Assembly (NCBI GenBank): GCA_023205875.1
Contig: CP060759.1
Span: 845,501-909,500 of the forward strand
Direction: 5' to 3'
DNA from: Chloropicon primus
Taxonomy: Eukaryota; Chlorophyta; Chloropicophyceae; Chloropicales; Chloropicaceae
DNA: 64,000 bases
Program-made: the position numbers and the translations under genes
Notes under the pieces: model-generated
The model's input: the letters and a program-made list of their open reading frames with translations, nothing else
Told to the model about the DNA's origin: nothing
The model's database searches: none
Shown here: piece by piece, positions 25,688 through 63,165 of the stretch
Layout of the letters: the number at the start of each line of letters is the position of its first letter
Position numbering within the stretch: position 1 is the stretch's first letter

Positions 25688-25876
25688 AAGATTGATGCGG
25701 CTTCAATTAATCCAGTTTCACCAAGATCTTCTTCTTGCCAATTCTCCGCCCCAGTGTTGGAGGTTTTCCCCTGTTGGTGGGATTCCAGTGTATACCAGTT
25801 TGGTCACACCCAAAGGACAACCCCCTAAGCGTTTTCTCGTGTTCTCACTTGCTGGACAAGGCCAATCTATAGTTAC

Positions 25877-28196
25877 GAGGAGTTACGAGCAGCGAGTGAA
25901 ACCCTAATAACCGTCATGGCGCGATCAGGGAAGCGCCGTAAGAAAAAGGAGAAGCAGGGGAGTGGCTCGACGAGTTCCACAAGGAGGTCGCACTCTGGCG
26001 AGAGTCATGCTCAGGGCGCTTCGAAGTCGGGGCAGGAGTCTCCGACGACGGAGCCGTTACGTCGGTTCTGGAATCAGGCGTTGAAGTGGCTCTACGAGAA
26101 GTGCATGCTTCCTATCGCGGACGACCCCGCCTCTGCGGGTGAGGGTTCGAGCACGCCTCGCAAGAAGCGGGGGGGGAAGCGGAAGGAGAAGCCGCTGGAC
26201 GACCCCGCCTCTGCTTTCGAGGAGGGTTCGAGCACGCCTCGCAAGAAGCGGGGGGGGAAGCGGAAGGGGAAGCCGCCGGAGGCGGCTTCCTCTGCGGGTG
26301 AGAGTTCGAGCTCGTCAGGCAAGCCTCGCAAGAAGCCTCGCAAGAAGGGCAAGAAGAAGAACAAGAAGAAGGGTAAGAAGAAGAAGAACAAGAGGGGGAA
26401 GAAAGCAGGGAAGCAGCCGGGTGGCTTGGCGGACGACAGCGTGAAGAAGACCTGGTTCTCATCGATGAAGAGAGAACTTGAAGAGGTAAAGTGTCCGAAG
26501 ACGGGATGGAGGTCGTGCTTGAACCTTCCAGAAGATTCTGTGGTATCCGTCGAGACATTGCAGCCGCCCGCCAAAAGGAAGAGGGGGCAGAAACTGAAGA
26601 CCTCCAAGCTATTGTCGGAGCGAACGGTGATACGGACGAGGAAGCTGAGGATGCGCTTGAACCCTGAGCAGGCGAAGTGCCTTTGCAACTGGATGGGAGC
26701 TGCGCGTTTCACATACAACAAGTGTTTGGAGGCGGTCAAGAAGGAGCGTTTTCCGCTGGTTTGGACCGTCCTGCTGGACAGATTTGTGACGGCCAAACCT
26801 CGAGGCCCTGAGGTCTTTGAGGGCCTGGAGAAAGAGCTGAAAGAAATCCAATGCTCTCCACGGCCATGGACAAAACAGGAGGCAGAGCTTTTCGCGGCCA
26901 GAGAGAAGAGACTCGAGAGCCAAATTGGAGGCAGACGATTTCGCGCCGAAGTGGCCAAGGACCGGGACTACGTTAGCGGGGCCTTTGTAAATCAGAAGCA
27001 TCCTTGGCTGAAGGATACCCCCTGTGCCATCAGACAAGCTGCCGTGCGAAGTCTCATCAAGGCATGGGATTCGAACATCGCGAAGCAGGAAGCGATGAAG
27101 GAGCGCGGCGAGGAGAAGGGGCACCGCTTCGTTCTCAAGTATCGTCAACGTCAGCAACCGAGTTCTTGGACCATTGAAATTGATGCAAGAGAGTTAAAGA
27201 ACGTGGAGACGATCGAAAGGCCAAACACGAGACACAAGGATGACACCAAGCACAAGAAACGACGCAAGTGGACCAAGCTGGAGGTGTTCAAGGAGAAGAT
27301 GGCCGGCGGGCCCCTGTACTTGACGGAGGAGATCCCCGGGGGCAAGATCGAGGGTGCCGTGAAGATCACAAGAAATCGCCTTGGGCAGTTCCACATGCAC
27401 ATTCCCATCGCGACGCCATGGGATCGCCTGCCACCCCTGAAGCCTGAGAACAAGCGGAAGGTTGTCGCCCTGGATCCGGGAGTCAGGACCTTTCAGACGT
27501 CGTACTCGCCGCAAGAAGGCGTCGGGGAGTATGCCACGGGCGAGCGAGGCTTCGCGAGGCTGTTCAACCTCTGCTGGAGGATTGATGAGATCATTTCCGA
27601 GCGCGAAGACCCAAAGGTGAAGCTCCCTTACCTCGACCGCCGCGACTTGAAGAGACAGCAATACGCCTGCATGGAGAAACTTCGAGGTCTGACGAACGAG
27701 CTTCACAAAAAGGTAGCCAACGATCTATGCAGGAGGTTCGACACAATCCTCCTCCCGGAGTTCAAGTCCCAAGACATGGTGAAGAAGAACAACAACGGGA
27801 GACGCCGAGTGATCAGGAAGAAGACGGCTCGCACGCTCTTGACGTTGAGGCACTATGCGTTCAGAACGTTCTTGGCTTCCAAGGTGCTCTTGCACGGCAG
27901 TGAGCTGGCGATCGTGACGGAGGAGTACACCTCCAAGACCTGTGGCAAGTGCGGACACATCAAGGACAACCTGGGTGGAGCAGAGGTGTACAAGTGCCAG
28001 AAGTGTGGCTTCAAGTGCGGTCGGGATGTGAACGGGGCACGCAACGTCCTCCTGAAGCACTTGCGTCAACCAAAAAGTGTGTAACTCCTCAGGGTTGCAC
28101 ATACGTTTGTTAGTACGGGCTGCCGTGCGCTAAGTGGGCGGAAGTATTCGTTCATGTACGGTGGAATGGTCGTGGTAGGGCCGAATTACCCTGCCG
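25877..28196 (+). mobile_element. Fanzor/TnpB (OrfB_IS605-type) element, limits uncertain
   Basis: The nuclease gene plus its structured 3' flank form the recognisable element. No transposase gene and no convincing target duplication are visible. A 10-base inverted match (GAGGAGTTAC at 25877-25886, GTAACTCCTC at 28081-28090) and a 10/11 match (25715-25725 with 28210-28220) are the only candidate ends. Matches of this size are expected by chance at nearly this frequency, so the limits given mark content rather than proven termini. The element lies between two ordinary host genes. Confidence 0.4.
25916..28084 (+). CDS. Fanzor-type RNA-guided nuclease (TnpB relative)
   Basis: 722 residues with no visible intron. 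Residues 1-230 are a lysine-rich extension with nuclear-localisation-like blocks (PRKKRGGKRK) and an imperfect internal duplication. The conserved body starts near residue 238 (RTRKLRMRLNPEQAKCL, then WMGAARFTYNKCLEAV), as in TnpB. The RuvC-like core keeps all three acidic residues: D520 in VVALDPGVRTF, E615 in ILLPEFKSQDM and D704 in CGRDVNGARN. A four-cysteine zinc knuckle lies between the last two (C676-x2-C679 and C694-x2-C697). TnpB and eukaryotic Fanzor proteins cut DNA guided by an omega-RNA whose scaffold is encoded over and past the 3' end of the gene. The frame and every catalytic residue are intact, so it is probably active or recently active. Fanzor1 is the likeliest subgroup, by analogy only. 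Confidence 0.88.
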   Translation: MARSGKRRKKKEKQGSGSTSSTRRSHSGESHAQGASKSGQESPTTEPLRRFWNQALKWLYEKCMLPIADDPASAGEGSSTPRKKRGGKRKEKPLDDPASAFEEGSSTPRKKRGGKRKGKPPEAASSAGESSSSSGKPRKKPRKKGKKKNKKKGKKKKNKRGKKAGKQPGGLADDSVKKTWFSSMKRELEEVKCPKTGWRSCLNLPEDSVVSVETLQPPAKRKRGQKLKTSKLLSERTVIRTRKLRMRLNPEQAKCLCNWMGAARFTYNKCLEAVKKERFPLVWTVLLDRFVTAKPRGPEVFEGLEKELKEIQCSPRPWTKQEAELFAAREKRLESQIGGRRFRAEVAKDRDYVSGAFVNQKHPWLKDTPCAIRQAAVRSLIKAWDSNIAKQEAMKERGEEKGHRFVLKYRQRQQPSSWTIEIDARELKNVETIERPNTRHKDDTKHKKRRKWTKLEVFKEKMAGGPLYLTEEIPGGKIEGAVKITRNRLGQFHMHIPIATPWDRLPPLKPENKRKVVALDPGVRTFQTSYSPQEGVGEYATGERGFARLFNLCWRIDEIISEREDPKVKLPYLDRRDLKRQQYACMEKLRGLTNELHKKVANDLCRRFDTILLPEFKSQDMVKKNNNGRRRVIRKKTARTLLTLRHYAFRTFLASKVLLHGSELAIVTEEYTSKTCGKCGHIKDNLGGAEVYKCQKCGFKCGRDVNGARNVLLKHLRQPKSV

Positions 28197-28200
28197 AGAA
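28085..28200 (+). ncRNA. candidate omega-RNA (guide scaffold) of the Fanzor gene
   Basis: The flank just after the nuclease stop folds into two simple hairpins. The first has a 6 bp stem (28113-28118 with 28123-28128, loop GCTG). The second has an 8 bp stem with two G-T pairs (28173-28180 with 28189-28196, loop CCGAATTA). In TnpB and Fanzor systems the scaffold RNA occupies this position and sense, and the guide follows it. No RNA data were used, so the limits are notional, and the scaffold may begin inside the 3' coding region. Confidence 0.35.
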
Positions 28201-28242
28201 ACTTACAAACTCGGTGAAACGACCTTTGCAGAAAACTAACAG

Positions 28243-28287
28243 GTAAGTTGTGGCCGGTCTTCTTCTCTCCGTGTTTCTCTCTTTCAG
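28243..28287 (+). other. candidate 45 bp intron in the leader between Fanzor and the hydrolase gene
   Basis: A perfect AG|GTAAGT donor and a long pyrimidine tract ending in TTTCAG bound a 45-base intron. The flanking exon sequence is non-coding in appearance. It belongs either to the 5' leader of the downstream membrane hydrolase or to the tail of the Fanzor transcript. Confidence 0.55.
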
Positions 28288-28724
28288 TGGAAAGGAGAAC
28301 TTGCCTTTGTGCTTCCAGTATTGACTGTGAATTCCCTACCGTCCTTTCGTGACTTTTCTGTGTGCTGTTTTGATCTGATGTCTGAACACCATAACACCCA
28401 GGGTAAACGGCAAACAAATCCTGCGACAGAGTCTCTCTCTCGCTCGCTCTCGCTCTCGCTCTTTCAAAGCCTCTCTCTGCCTCGCTCTCTGTCTCCTTCT
28501 CTCTCTCACTCTGTCTGAAACTTCATTGAGAAAGCGTCCGAGGGGGTGGGAAAGTCACGAGAGAGCGAACCGAGGAGGGAGAGAGGGAGAGAGCCTCGTC
28601 TTCCCCTCGCCCCAGACGTCACACACACACACACACACACACGCTCACACACACATACCTTCACGGTCTGTCAACAACAGGAGTGATGCTGACCTACTAG
28701 ACGGGCACCTCCTTTGCAGGCAGG
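28288..28724 (+). other. leader/intron region of the membrane hydrolase gene with CT and CA repeats
   Basis: It contains CT-rich runs (about 28430-28515) and a CA microsatellite (about 28620-28655). It ends in the acceptor CTCCTTTGCAG (28709-28719), five bases before the hydrolase ATG. The acceptor strongly implies a 5' leader intron covering much of this stretch; its donor was not fixed. Confidence 0.5.
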
Positions 28725-58213: not shown

Positions 58214-58479
58214 GGGTGCTAGAATCGGGGTGGCACTTCGTGCGCGGGCGGGGTGGGGGCATTCTCCGCCCGGGTCGGTGCCCGGGAAAGGGACAAGGGG
58301 GTAGACGGGTGTGCCGTTGGTTTTTCACACAAACATCTTTAGAAGTAGAACAAGGAGGAGGTCGTTGGGGCATCTCATTTTTCAACAAATAAAACATGCT
58401 ACAACATAATACAATACTGCTCCTTGCTGACGCGCTTGGCCAGGCTGACCGTGGCCGCGGTTTAGGTTTCTGGTGGTTC

Positions 58480-58986
58480 TCAGAATATTCCAAACCTCCG
58501 CGGGGCTGGCTTCCCGCTCCGCCCTTCGAGCTCCTCCAGCCTGCTCAGCATCTCCCTCTGCTTCAGCTCGAGGTTGGCAATGATCGCCATCTGGTGTTCT
58601 TGCAGCCTCATCCTCTTCTCCTCCTTTTCTACCCTCCGCTTCTCTTTGTTCACCCTCTTCAGCTCGTCCCTCCTGTTGCTCCGGTCGTACTCGTACAGCA
58701 GCAGGCCCCCACCAACAGTGTAGATAAAACTTTCGGAGAAGAACTTCCCCGCCAGGTTCAGCGCCCGCTCGTCGTTCAGAGGCGATATCTCTGCGCCCTT
58801 CTTCTTCTCCTGGCCCCTTGCTGCCCTGTTGATCCTCACGTTCCACCTGTGGAGGACTTGAGCCCAATCGATCGCCCGCTGCCTCACCACCGGGTGGGAG
58901 AGCATGTAATCCTGGAAGACGTACGCCAAAGGCTTCGACGCCGTCTTCACCGTCATGGTGAACACTTTGATCGCAAGCTGCGCCAT
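58480..58986 (-). CDS. OPA3: OPA3-like protein
   Basis: 168 residues from the ATG at 58986 (an in-frame ATG at 59013 adds nine residues). It matches the OPA3 family: LAIKVFTMTVKTASKPLA at the N-terminus, a VVRQRAIDWAQVLHRWNVRI region, FSESFIYTVGGGLLLYEYDRS with its hydrophobic segment, then a long charged helix. OPA3 is a mitochondrial outer- or inner-membrane protein affecting morphology and lipid homeostasis. It is head-to-head with TERT. Confidence 0.8.
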   Translation of the reverse strand: MAQLAIKVFTMTVKTASKPLAYVFQDYMLSHPVVRQRAIDWAQVLHRWNVRINRAARGQEKKKGAEISPLNDERALNLAGKFFSESFIYTVGGGLLLYEYDRSNRRDELKRVNKEKRRVEKEEKRMRLQEHQMAIIANLELKQREMLSRLEELEGRSGKPAPRRFGIF

Positions 58987-59322
58987 CACAACCCCCGCAC
59001 CAGCCCCCTCCACACACCGTCCTCAACCAAGGCCACCACCAGGCTCCAATGCAATCCAAACCAAACCAAACCCGTTGCCTCCCTCTCCACCAACCCCCTT
59101 CTCTCTCTCGCCACCTCCGCCACTCCAGACGGCGGCAAACTCGTCGACTCCGAGCCTTGCCCCTCCCTTGCCTCGTCCCCACCGTCCTCCGCTTCGGGAC
59201 CGGGACGACGAACTCCGCTTCGACACGACCACCTTCGCTCCGCTCCTCGACAGACAGAGAGAGAGCGCGCGCGCGAGGGTGGTGGTGGTCGTGGGGAGGC
59301 AAAGGGCGGAAGGGGGGGGAGG
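58987..59322. other. divergent OPA3/TERT promoter region
   Basis: 336 bp, GC-rich, ending in a GA/GGA-rich leader just before the TERT ATG. The TERT frame stays open through this region, but it is antisense to OPA3 and codes low-complexity residues. Confidence 0.5.
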
Positions 59323-62300
59323 ATGAAGAGGGAGAGGTATCCGATAGTCCTGAAGGCCCTTTATGGAAACGATGTGCAAACGTTGCGAGAGGCGGTGGAC
59401 TTGTTGGCGCCGTTCGAGACGGAGGACCGTCGGGGTTCGACGGTAGGGGACTGGAGGAGGGAAGATGATCATGTGTCCTCCCTCCCCTCGAGCTCGTACA
59501 ACAGAGTGTCGCAGGACGGGCTGGACATGCTGTTGGACGAGACGTTCGTGGTGTTCGAGCGGAGGGCGCCCGACCTCGCGACGTGGTTCCAGCGGGCAAG
59601 GAACAGGCGAGAGAGCGGTAACGGTCGCTACCTCGAGGCGCGGAACTGCCAGAGGCGCTTGGTGTTGGAGGTCGTGAACGAAAAGTTCAAAGTAGGAAAG
59701 TCTGGGGGATCGGGGAACACGGACGTGTTGTGCATAGGGTACAAGAAGGTCAACGGCGCGAGCGGCAGGGGAAGGTCCATGAACGCCATGGACCTGCCGT
59801 GCTCCAGCAACGGGGGTGGTCATCAGGGCAACATCCAAAGGACGTTTAACTCCTCCGTTCCCGCTGATCTGCTCTCCACCACGGCTTGGCAAGGTCTACT
59901 GACAGTATTAGGGCGAGACATCCTCAAGTACATCTTGATGCACTCCTCAGTCTTTGTCACGCAAACCCAGCCGCGTGGCAGAAAGTACTATTTGCAGGCT
60001 TGTGGGTACCCGGTGAACAGCTACGTGTACAAGAAGGCGTGGCAAGCGAAGCACCTGCCGCCGCCAGCTCCCGGTGTGACCAAGGGCCTTAGCACGGAGC
60101 CGAGCGATCCCGAGGAGAGACTCTTGCAGTTCAGTGATATATCAACGAACCCAGAGCTAGACGAGTCGTACAGGAGAACTGTTAAGGACCAGATGGAGAA
60201 GGGCGCAAGGTGGTGGAACGACTTGGGAGAGTTAGAAGACGTGAGGATGTTAGATTCCGAGGGCAGCTTGCATTTCGGCGACGACGAGGGCGGCCTTGTA
60301 CCGCTCGCGGAGTTGTTCGATCAAGAGCCCTCGCAGCCGCGAAAGAGGAAGGCTGTCCGTCTTCCGGCTTGGAAGAGAAGGAAGGAGGCAAAAATGACTG
60401 AGCGTCAGGACCAAGAGATGGTCGAACCAGCCGCTGCACTCCCCAACCCCACGACGCATGGGAGGACCACAGCCATGAATGCATTCGAAGGGAATGGAAG
60501 TGCTGCCCCAGCCTGGAAGAAACAGCCCAAAAAGGATATTTCAGGATCGTTGAAGGTTCCAAGGCCTTACTTGTTTAATGTGAAGTGGTGCCTAACTTAT
60601 ACAGCTGGTTCAGGTTTGCCACGCAAACACATTTTGTTGGGGCTGACCAGCGACGTTCCCGGCAGCATGCAGCTGCTGCAAGACATATTCTCGAGCGAAC
60701 TGAGGCGGGACTCTGGGAAGGCAGGGATCGCGGCGGTCAGGAGTGGATCTCAAAAGCCGCCAGGTGCAAAGGTTCCCAATTGCGTGAGGCACTTGTGTCC
60801 AATGGCAAGGCACTTGATCAAGGCAGCGCGAGTCTGTCCCTATTTCAGGTTGCTCAAGGAATCTTGCCCAGATCCAGTCGAAATGAAAAGGAAAGGAATT
60901 CTTTTCAGCGAGAGCGAGAATGTCTTGGATTACAGCACGTCCCCGAAACAGTTAGGGGATTTTGTTTGGTCCGTTATCACATTCATCACTCCGAAGATAC
61001 TCTTGGGTAGCAAGTCCAACCGAAGGGCGCTGAGGAATGCGATCCACAAGTTTCTGTGCAAGAAGCGGTACGAGGAGATGACCATGCAGGAGGCCGTGTT
61101 CAATATGAAAGTGAAGGAATTCGACTGGTTCTGCCCGAGCAAACAGAAGGATCAGAAGAAGAGAACAGCAAGTCAGCACAGGGACTATTCCAACTTACTG
61201 AAAAGGTGGATCTTTTGGGTGTTCACTCGACTGGTCAACCCTTTGGTACTGACGAACTTCTATGTGACCCAGGCGGAGGGCCGCGGCTGGAAGGTCTTTT
61301 ACGTTCGCCACAGTTGTTGGAAAAAGGCATGCATGAGCCACATGGATGGCCTATGCAATGGAGGCAAGCGCATGTTGAAAGAGGTCGAGAAGGGTGATCT
61401 GAAGCAAGTGCTGCAAAGGAACCATTTGGGCGTAAGCCACCTCAGATTTCTTCCCAAACGCAGCACGGGCGTGAGACTTATATTAAACCAGAGCAAGCGG
61501 ACAGACCTTAGTTCTCATCTCAGCGAGCTCGACCTTCCCGGGTCCTTGAAGGAGGTCCTAGGACAATTCAAACGGCGGCCTATCAACAGTTTCTTGAGGG
61601 AGGCCCATTGCGCGATCCAGCACGAGGTAAACGCCCTTCCCGGTGTTTTGGGTACGTCGGGCTTGAGCTTGAGCGAGGCCCAGCGGAAGCTCAGCGCGTT
61701 CCTACACAAGCAGGCGGCGAGAGGTGCCAGTCAGAAGTTCTATGTAGTCTCCTGCGATGTGGAAAAAGCCTATGACTCTGTGGACGCAAACCACCTTATC
61801 TCCATGGTCGATGACATATTCCAGCAGGACGAATACGAGTTCTTCAAATTCACACGCACGAATTTCGGGCACGGGACTCCTTTCACAAAGACGACGCAGG
61901 CGTGTGGAGCCTTGCCGCCCAACAGCGATTTCGAGGTCGGTTTTTCCAAGCATGCCAATGAGGTGCTCCTGAACAAGGCCTCCAGCTCGAAGGTGAAAGC
62001 TTCAGCGCTCCAGGCGATTGTGAGAGAGCACTTGCTGTCAAACGTGATTCTTGGGTGGGGGAAATTCTACAAGCAGACGGTGGGGATCCCTCAAGGCTCG
62101 ACCCTGTCAGCCTTGCTGTGTTCCCTTTACTTGGCGAATTTGGAGGTGAACAGAATATTCCCATTGATGGATATTGAGTCGGAGAACGTCGATGCTCTGA
62201 GGTTCCACTTGAGGCACAGCAAGGGCGTGCAAGGCCACGGCGTCGGGGGGGAGGGCGGCCCTCCACCTCTGTCTGCAACCCTGAGCACGGATCCTTCTCA

Positions 62301-63165
62301 CGGCACACTGAGAGCATCAACCCAGGCGAAGGCGACGTCGCACCAGAGCACAATCCTGAGGTATGTGGACGATTTCTTGTACATCACCAGCAGCGAAGAG
62401 GACGCCAGGAAGTTCTTGAAAGTGATGCACCAGGGCTTTCCGGAGTACAACTGTTACATGAACAAGAAGAAGACCAGTTGCAACTTCAGCGTGGACGGAA
62501 GCGATGCGAGCGGGTCAAGGAATTTGTGGATCGACGGAAAAGGTTCTGCGTTCCTGAAGTGGTGCGGCATGCTGATCAACGCGAACACGCTTGAGATTCA
62601 GAGGGACCTCACCCAAGACACGGGGGGTGTCACGAACACTGTTCTGATCCCTCCGCAACCAGGAAATCACCTGAAGGCGAAGCTTTACCGATTCATGCAG
62701 TTCGATCTCAAAAATGCCTCGCTCTTTGACTTCGTCATCAATTCTCCCGAGGTGGTGAGGCTCAACGTGTACCAGGTGTTCCTTGTGGGCGCCACCAAGT
62801 GCGAATACATGTTGAGCCACATGGTCAGCTCCCCGCCGCTCGTAGACATCTTGTACGACGCGATCTCCAGCTCGTTGTCCCACGTGGTCTTTAGGGTCCG
62901 GAAGCACCAGGACGAGCTCAGGCAGCTGATGCGAGACCCGTCCTGCGACGCTTGCAAGAACGGGGTGGTGAAAATAACCCCGGAGAGCCACATCAGGTGG
63001 CTGGGCTACCAGGGTTTCCTGGGGGTCTTGAAAAGGAAGCAGACGAGGCACGCCGCGATCATCGCACGCTTGGAGTGCGACCTGAAGGACCCCGATTTCG
63101 AGTGCCTTCACGCCCGGCTGGCGGGAACCTTGAACCCCGACTTGAGGCGGTTTCGTCAGGTCTGA
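59323..63165 (+). CDS. TERT: telomerase reverse transcriptase catalytic subunit
   Basis: 1280 residues with no intron seen. A TEN-like domain contains W189 (WQGLLTVLG) and SVFVTQ...KYYLQACG. The telomerase-specific T motif is FYVTQAEGRGWKVFYVRHSCW from F646. Reverse-transcriptase motifs follow: 1/2 LRFLPK (L707-K712) with GVRLILN (G716 onward), A YVVSCDVEKAYDSV with D812, B GIPQGSTLSALLCSLY (G921 onward), C LRYVDDFLYI with D1016-D1017, D GFPEYNCYMNKKKTSCNF, and E WCGMLINANTLEI (W1080). All three catalytic aspartates are present. A ~60-residue Gly/Ser-rich insert lies between motifs B and C (about 940-1008). The C-terminal extension is ~190 residues. It maintains chromosome ends with the telomerase RNA. 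The ATG at 59323 is the first after the OPA3 gene. Confidence 0.96.
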   Translation: MKRERYPIVLKALYGNDVQTLREAVDLLAPFETEDRRGSTVGDWRREDDHVSSLPSSSYNRVSQDGLDMLLDETFVVFERRAPDLATWFQRARNRRESGNGRYLEARNCQRRLVLEVVNEKFKVGKSGGSGNTDVLCIGYKKVNGASGRGRSMNAMDLPCSSNGGGHQGNIQRTFNSSVPADLLSTTAWQGLLTVLGRDILKYILMHSSVFVTQTQPRGRKYYLQACGYPVNSYVYKKAWQAKHLPPPAPGVTKGLSTEPSDPEERLLQFSDISTNPELDESYRRTVKDQMEKGARWWNDLGELEDVRMLDSEGSLHFGDDEGGLVPLAELFDQEPSQPRKRKAVRLPAWKRRKEAKMTERQDQEMVEPAAALPNPTTHGRTTAMNAFEGNGSAAPAWKKQPKKDISGSLKVPRPYLFNVKWCLTYTAGSGLPRKHILLGLTSDVPGSMQLLQDIFSSELRRDSGKAGIAAVRSGSQKPPGAKVPNCVRHLCPMARHLIKAARVCPYFRLLKESCPDPVEMKRKGILFSESENVLDYSTSPKQLGDFVWSVITFITPKILLGSKSNRRALRNAIHKFLCKKRYEEMTMQEAVFNMKVKEFDWFCPSKQKDQKKRTASQHRDYSNLLKRWIFWVFTRLVNPLVLTNFYVTQAEGRGWKVFYVRHSCWKKACMSHMDGLCNGGKRMLKEVEKGDLKQVLQRNHLGVSHLRFLPKRSTGVRLILNQSKRTDLSSHLSELDLPGSLKEVLGQFKRRPINSFLREAHCAIQHEVNALPGVLGTSGLSLSEAQRKLSAFLHKQAARGASQKFYVVSCDVEKAYDSVDANHLISMVDDIFQQDEYEFFKFTRTNFGHGTPFTKTTQACGALPPNSDFEVGFSKHANEVLLNKASSSKVKASALQAIVREHLLSNVILGWGKFYKQTVGIPQGSTLSALLCSLYLANLEVNRIFPLMDIESENVDALRFHLRHSKGVQGHGVGGEGGPPPLSATLSTDPSHGTLRASTQAKATSHQSTILRYVDDFLYITSSEEDARKFLKVMHQGFPEYNCYMNKKKTSCNFSVDGSDASGSRNLWIDGKGSAFLKWCGMLINANTLEIQRDLTQDTGGVTNTVLIPPQPGNHLKAKLYRFMQFDLKNASLFDFVINSPEVVRLNVYQVFLVGATKCEYMLSHMVSSPPLVDILYDAISSSLSHVVFRVRKHQDELRQLMRDPSCDACKNGVVKITPESHIRWLGYQGFLGVLKRKQTRHAAIIARLECDLKDPDFECLHARLAGTLNPDLRRFRQV

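Follow-up and report, generated by a model that had tools for sequence, protein, structure and literature searches.

The window analysed here, a stretch of 64,000 nucleotides from contig 6 of the 20 in the assembly of the tiny marine green alga Chloropicon primus RCC138, carries an intact frame of 722 amino acids that an initial annotation read as an unbroken Fanzor gene followed by a possible omega-RNA. The question raised by this locus is whether the protein is a working RNA-guided nuclease in its natural host and, if so, which DNA its RNA would direct it to cut. The role of Fanzors for the elements that carry them is poorly understood.

The identification as a Fanzor was borne out in the PDB, where the best match by both sequence and fold was the mimivirus Fanzor2 (L79). 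In the fold search this structure (9b0l) stood at rank 1 (E 2.4e-18) and the SpuFz1 entries only at ranks 46, 48 and 49 (E 2e-6 to 5e-6), outranked by many TnpB/Cas12 entries. Judged from its predicted structure, the fold of the C. primus protein is nearer to Fanzor2 than to Fanzor1, and a phylogenetic position with Fanzor2 has been published for this species (PMC10711439). The mimivirus protein likewise has a lysine-rich stretch in its N-terminus, but it is viral, 520 rather than 722 residues long and 18% identical in the structural alignment. Profile searches of the C. primus frame recovered a Cas12f1-like_TNB domain (E 8e-18) and an HTH_OrfB domain (E 2e-6), and the NCBIfam guided_TnpB model gave 92.9 bits, below its cut-off of 100. 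The AlphaFold2 model was mostly confident for residues ~235-715 and mostly disordered before that; the N-terminus holds internal repeats and is rich in lysine, as had been claimed, with 67 K/R within residues 1-232.

Three RuvC acids (D520, E615 and D704) and a C4 zinc knuckle had also been assigned from the frame. Across 53 aligned sequences, DPG at residues 520-522, D704 (the RuvC-III Asp) and all four zinc-knuckle cysteines were unchanged, and only the middle acid had to be given up: position 615 is E in just 18 of the 53, versus 53 of 53 for E669, which makes E615 unlikely as the catalytic glutamate. Fanzors have DPG at RuvC-I and a shifted RuvC-II glutamate, 'Ealt' (PMC10711439), and we infer from the alignment that E669 is this residue. 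Constraint on the protein was only moderate, with a pN/pS of 0.525 in the core ORF (singletons: 6 synonymous and 17 nonsynonymous), and 20 of the 30 genomic copies described below retain the full frame from MARSG to the C-terminus with every tested motif.

A separate observation concerns fusions of Fanzors with another nuclease. In three metagenomic proteins (P0028, P0059 and P0121), an EXO1-like nuclease domain is joined to a Fanzor. The EXO1-like part of P0028 matches the structure of human Exonuclease 1 (E 1e-54); P0028 and P0059 are 51% identical over nearly their full length, P0121 is 37% identical to P0028 over 679 columns, and on visual inspection P0121 and P0059 have similar EXO1 parts. 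These proteins may represent an EXO1-Fanzor fusion lineage, which might couple cutting with end resection; literature searches gave nothing on such a fusion among the matches listed, in one case the best 10 of 360.

The genome searched was an assembly of 17,584,162 bp in 20 contigs, from a strain that is mostly diploid (PMC12301720). A tblastn search returned 62 matches, a number raised by copies that were matched in several pieces, and 30 loci were taken for analysis. They are mostly 96-98% identical to the window copy and are spread over 14 of the 20 contigs of this algal assembly, so the gene is not the bacterial contaminant against which the initial annotation had advised a check. At the DNA level the 3' region had 42 matches, 30 of which span at least its first 256 bases. 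Other copies with shared ends, also proposed as something to look for, were indeed present, with most of the 30 sharing the sharp ends TGTTGG...ATAACA (window 25755 and 28396). The mobile unit is therefore window 25755-28396, TGTT...AACA, with 5-bp duplications at its borders (Table 1); it is larger than the feature first proposed, whose end at 28242 stands as the end of the scaffold only. A pattern search located both ends in 21 elements (19 of the 30 with Fanzor and two without; 11 of the 30 were left out), and a perfect 5-bp target-site duplication (TSD) was found in 17 of these 21, comprising 16 of the 19 with Fanzor and one of the two without. The exceptions have one mismatch (L025), a 6-bp repeat (L026) or no TSD (L021 and L064). 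By eye, the inverted ends consist of just TGTT/AACA plus weak similarity. On its sequence the element is of the Fanzor2* type, with both a TIR and a TSD present. The copies are mosaic, and linkage along them is short, with a mean r2 of 0.76 within 10 bp and 0.15 at 60-100 bp. Of 28 left flanks (24 Fanzor, four Fanzor-free), 18 have a CAG no more than 8 nt from the element, versus 11% in the background, and two have a CTG, an asymmetric target preference.

Table 1. Coordinates of the Fanzor element and its parts, in positions of the window.
Feature	Position	Strand	Basis
Target-site duplication CCCAG, left copy	25750..25754	.	sequence; equals 28397-28401
Carrier 5' arm, starts TGTTGG; common to Fanzor-free relatives	25755..25870	+	comparison of relatives
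Fanzor cassette 5' leader; copies show two main haplotypes	25871..25915	+	comparison of copies
Fanzor2 ORF, 722 aa; D520, E669, D704, C4 zinc knuckle	25916..28084	+	ORF, domain, alignment and structure searches
Candidate omega-RNA scaffold, ends CTAACAG	28079..28242	+	copy invariance, predicted fold, relics
Putative guide position, nt 1-15, GTAAGTTGTGGCCGG in the window copy	28243..28257	+	comparison of 30 copies
Hypervariable junction; candidate repair scars of cleavage	28258..28285	+	comparison of 30 copies
Carrier 3' arm, ends ATAACA; common to Fanzor-free relatives; first bases vary among copies	28268..28396	+	
Target-site duplication CCCAG, right copy	28397..28401	.	sequence; equals 25750-25754

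Elements without Fanzor have positions 1-116 (5') and up to positions 2514-2642 (3') of the Fanzor element in common with it. One of them (L062) is a 571-bp element with a TSD, L061 and L064 have a shorter 3' part, L063 has shorter stretches of both arms, and L065 is the 3' end of the carrier only. Because the carrier arms occur without Fanzor, the Fanzor gene and the RNA scaffold form a cassette within a carrier. Internal repeats of a 103-bp unit are found in L061 and L063. As for what moves the carrier, the 16-base pattern of its 5' end has 28 exact matches, 24 in Fanzor-bearing composites and four in Fanzor-free elements, and shows no excess of near matches (154 in all versus 170 in the control); the matches listed included no autonomous partner sharing this 5' end. 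TG..CA ends and a 5-bp TSD would fit an LTR retrotransposon or solo LTR, yet this reading is weakened because intron-blind searches of the genome gave no match to the rve integrase profile and, for RVT_1, a sole match to TERT in the same window; an RVT_2 profile search was also run, and its control gave no match. The telomerase reverse transcriptase gene lies at window 58396-63165 (+), with a Telomerase_RBD match at E 2e-28. Carriage of the IS607 type was rejected, as current copies have a 5-bp TSD and the four Resolvase matches of the genome lie outside the element, although the old relics described below do end at GG, as IS607 right ends do. A Resolvase-type recombinase frame, 375 aa of it open in L102, occurs at four places (L102-L105) that are 98.6-99.8% identical across about 2 kb and represent another recent duplicate or mobile family; it has no DNA in common with the Fanzor element beyond chance words.

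The proposal that the 3' flank encodes an omega-RNA, with two hairpins past the stop codon, gained support from the copies and from older relatives. In 159 nt of the scaffold (to 28243), the 30 copies hold no private allele, two shared alleles and one indel allele, whereas private alleles do occur in the core ORF (28 over 1504 nt), the 5' arm (7 over 116 nt) and the 3' arm (10 over 121 nt). The predicted fold consists of a 9-bp hairpin across the stop codon (28079-28100) and a long stem-loop within a closing helix, in which 28107-28114 pairs with 28235-28242. Its z-score is -2.7 versus 200 shuffles, three of which fold equally well, and drops to -1.04 once the following bases are included. Nine fetched relics (L067-L075, with L067 and L068 near-identical neighbours) carry a 5'-truncated Fanzor C-terminus and stop at CTAACGG, or at CTAACAG (L075) or CTAGCGG (L069), where unrelated DNA begins; L076 is a Fanzor fragment without scaffold. 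Covariation was assessed on an alignment of the composite, the scaffold copy L066 and eight relics, representing about three independent lineages. In the four helices 95.4% of cells are paired, with eight compensatory changes, versus 25-42% in slid controls; against 500 shuffles three of five measures of pairing stand out and two do not (55 and 454 of 500), and RNAalifold gave a weak consensus of -7.45 kcal/mol with a covariation term of 0.1. The hairpins are largely kept in these relatives, one of the outcomes on which the initial annotation had made its reading depend. Near-invariance among copies, a predicted fold and some compensatory changes in relics that stop at the same place together favour reading the 3' flank as a putative omega-RNA scaffold in the same sense as the ORF. 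A model of this scaffold, searched against 27 sequence sources that included 17 of 25 viral loci, matched the element itself only.

Two further observations were made among the relics. L066 is a lone 151-bp scaffold copy without Fanzor or carrier. L073 and L075, which belong to different subfamilies, have about 80 bases of left sequence in common, joined at the same point of the Fanzor C-terminus; a genome search found this sequence in these two only, and it may be what is left of the left terminus of an element since deleted.

The scaffold ends at CTAACAG (28236-28242), 154 bp inside the element, and because of this the guide position would be internal to the element. In the canonical arrangement for Fanzor2*, the RNA would extend across the 3' arm and on through TIR and TSD, with DNA outside the element as the guide. 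This is the published view for Fanzor1 and, as it appears, for Fanzor2* (PMC10711439), and the CAG-rich left flanks (18 of 28 versus 11%) could be a TAM. We nevertheless consider this arrangement very unlikely here, since the old relics lack a 3' arm and stop where the scaffold does, the predicted closing helix finishes at the same point, and the 3' arm occurs in Fanzor-free elements too.

Directly past the scaffold, all 30 copies read GTAAGT[TA]G[TG]GGCCGG, so that nt 1-15 are kept in 30 of 30 save for two common SNPs and one extra base in two copies. These 15 nt have 28 exact matches in the genome, all 28 of them copies of the element, and a search for other genomic targets gave 24 one-mismatch matches versus 22 in a control. 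Beyond them follows the most variable segment of the element, with 29 distinct joints among 30 copies. In windows of 25 nt, the copies show 28 distinct versions at the junction, versus a median of 2 over 524 windows and a highest value elsewhere of 14, in the 5' leader. Raw 10-mers, which require no column alignment, gave one or two variants per block in the last 160 nt up to the scaffold end, whereas the four blocks that follow have 5, 16, 22 and 17. The 27 nt of the junction hold 22 distinct indel alleles; the scaffold has one (159 nt), the 3' arm 4 (111 nt), the 5' arm 7 (108 nt) and the N-terminus with its repeats 22 (665 nt). Scored against a junction reference inferred from the copies, with the two common SNPs and the extra base masked, the first deviation falls at nt 16-23 past the scaffold in all 30. 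Twenty of the 30 copies have 20-21 nt ahead of their first carrier match, and 26 have 18-23 nt; the remaining four have 10, 14, 16 and 32 nt, and the 10 nt of L006 look, on visual inspection, like an artefact produced by a base change at a later time. How much of the right side is missing varies, with the carrier resuming at 19 different places as scored, or 18 without L006. The motif CAG/GTAAGT...TTTCAG at this spot looks like a pair of splice sites, but in L002 and L023 such an intron would be only some 25 nt long, and on visual inspection GTAAGT could pair with the scaffold loop AACTTAC as well.

Ordinary repeat instability, in which a CT-rich 12-bp repeat of the carrier (CCGTGTTTCTCT) slips and mutates with the nuclease uninvolved, is one way to account for such a hotspot, and one to three units of the repeat are found right at the spot in copies and in the fragment L065. 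We regard it as unlikely: none of the 29 measurable copies (one was unmeasurable) differs by a nonzero multiple of 12, the deletions extend past the repeat in L002, L022 and L023, L020 carries a non-repeat insert, and the Fanzor-free L061-L063, a small sample of three, keep the same bases save for a point change. Alternatively, the joint between cassette and 3' arm might be made anew in transposition or gap repair, so that its diversity would reflect movement rather than RNA-guided cutting. Nearly every copy does have its own joint, and mosaic copies with short linkage are expected under much recombination; gap-repair joints should, however, scatter, whereas the left border hardly shifts (in 20 of 30 copies it lies 20-21 nt past the scaffold), and the outer ends and TSDs indicate that the element moves as a whole, which makes this account quite improbable in our view.

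Copies that are identical over long stretches were also compared at the joint. L024 and L026 are identical across 1501 nt of ORF, yet have different joints; they also differ in other parts. Among pairs identical in the right arm, 101 of 102 differ at the joint, and among those identical over 27315-28243 (929 nt), five of six do, a proportion also reached in two of six control windows. Synonymous diversity is 0.034-0.041 at 26900-27500 and falls toward the scaffold to 0.010 and then 0.005.

The explanation that we favour, with about an even chance of being right, is that the Fanzor has cut its own family and that repair left scars at the junction. A Fanzor2 gene with its omega-RNA scaffold would have been captured as a cassette in a short cut-and-paste-like element and amplified with this carrier to about 30 copies. 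The RNA would run through the scaffold into the bases beyond, which would act as an element-encoded guide. As this guide would be part of the element and differ little from copy to copy, we propose that the Fanzor recognises its own family, and its targets would be element copies because the 15 guide-like nt match exactly only there. Cleavage about 16-21 nt past the scaffold end would be followed by end joining, leaving a new scar at the cut spot, and recombination between copies would homogenise the DNA to the left. The cuts of SpuFz1 lie after nt 16-17 of one strand and after nt 20-21 of the other (PMC10432273), and filled-in left ends of this type would retain 20-21 nt, as observed. Among Fanzor2 proteins, NlovFz2 cuts blunt after nt 19 and MmeFz2 with 3' overhangs (PMC10432273), so the fit to a Fanzor1 cut pattern may be chance. 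The drop in diversity toward the scaffold would fit repair from siblings, but it is one-sided and could equally be a sweep.

Several points speak against self-cutting. CTAACAG would need to act as a TAM, and such elements normally avoid carrying a TAM. The CT-rich 12-bp repeat adjoins the hotspot, and left sequence is never lost, whereas end joining often deletes on both sides. A bolder version, which we hold only tentatively and think somewhat unlikely, is a self-editing, homing-like element: because the guide is written inside the element, every Fanzor RNP would target all sibling copies, and each cut would rewrite the distal end of the guide and convert the left side from a sibling.

A Fanzor2 inside a TIR/TSD transposon of C. 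primus has already been published (PMC10711439), with the same species, protein family and transposon carriage as here. That study places the TIR and TSD of such elements within the scaffold and suggests them as scaffold parts, whereas the scaffold described here ends 154 bp before the element does. To the text of that paper as available to us, our analysis adds the internal scaffold end, the Fanzor-free carriers, the relics and the scar hotspot. SpuFz1 of Spu-1 (PMC10432273) is similar in that its element is short, has inverted repeats and is accompanied by Fanzor-free 'ghost' relatives, and in that a conserved RNA is followed by a variable guide, with cuts at nt 16-17 and 20-21; unlike the present protein it is a Fanzor1 whose RNA extends across the right inverted repeat to a guide beyond it. 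IS607 TnpB (ISXfa1; PMC10711439) also has a right-end RNA and a right-end GG dinucleotide like the C. primus relics, but it is bacterial and moved by a serine recombinase, and the current C. primus copies have TSDs. The papers listed for Fanzor in Chloropicon were PMC10711439 and a study citing it, which reports a Fanzor element as the most abundant repeat of an Auxenochlorella genome. A literature search on self-targeting, gene conversion and indels gave nothing on this point among the matches listed.

The scar pattern supports a working RNA-guided nuclease only indirectly. Twenty intact copies, a guide position inside the element and scars roughly where a Fanzor cut would be expected would together constitute genomic evidence of an active eukaryotic RNA-guided nuclease. 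If the homing-like version were true, the cassette would spread and be homogenised among carriers, and only carriers without the target would stay free of it. If self-cutting is correct, a Fanzor would be active in its natural host and acting on its own family, which is directly testable in the cultured alga.
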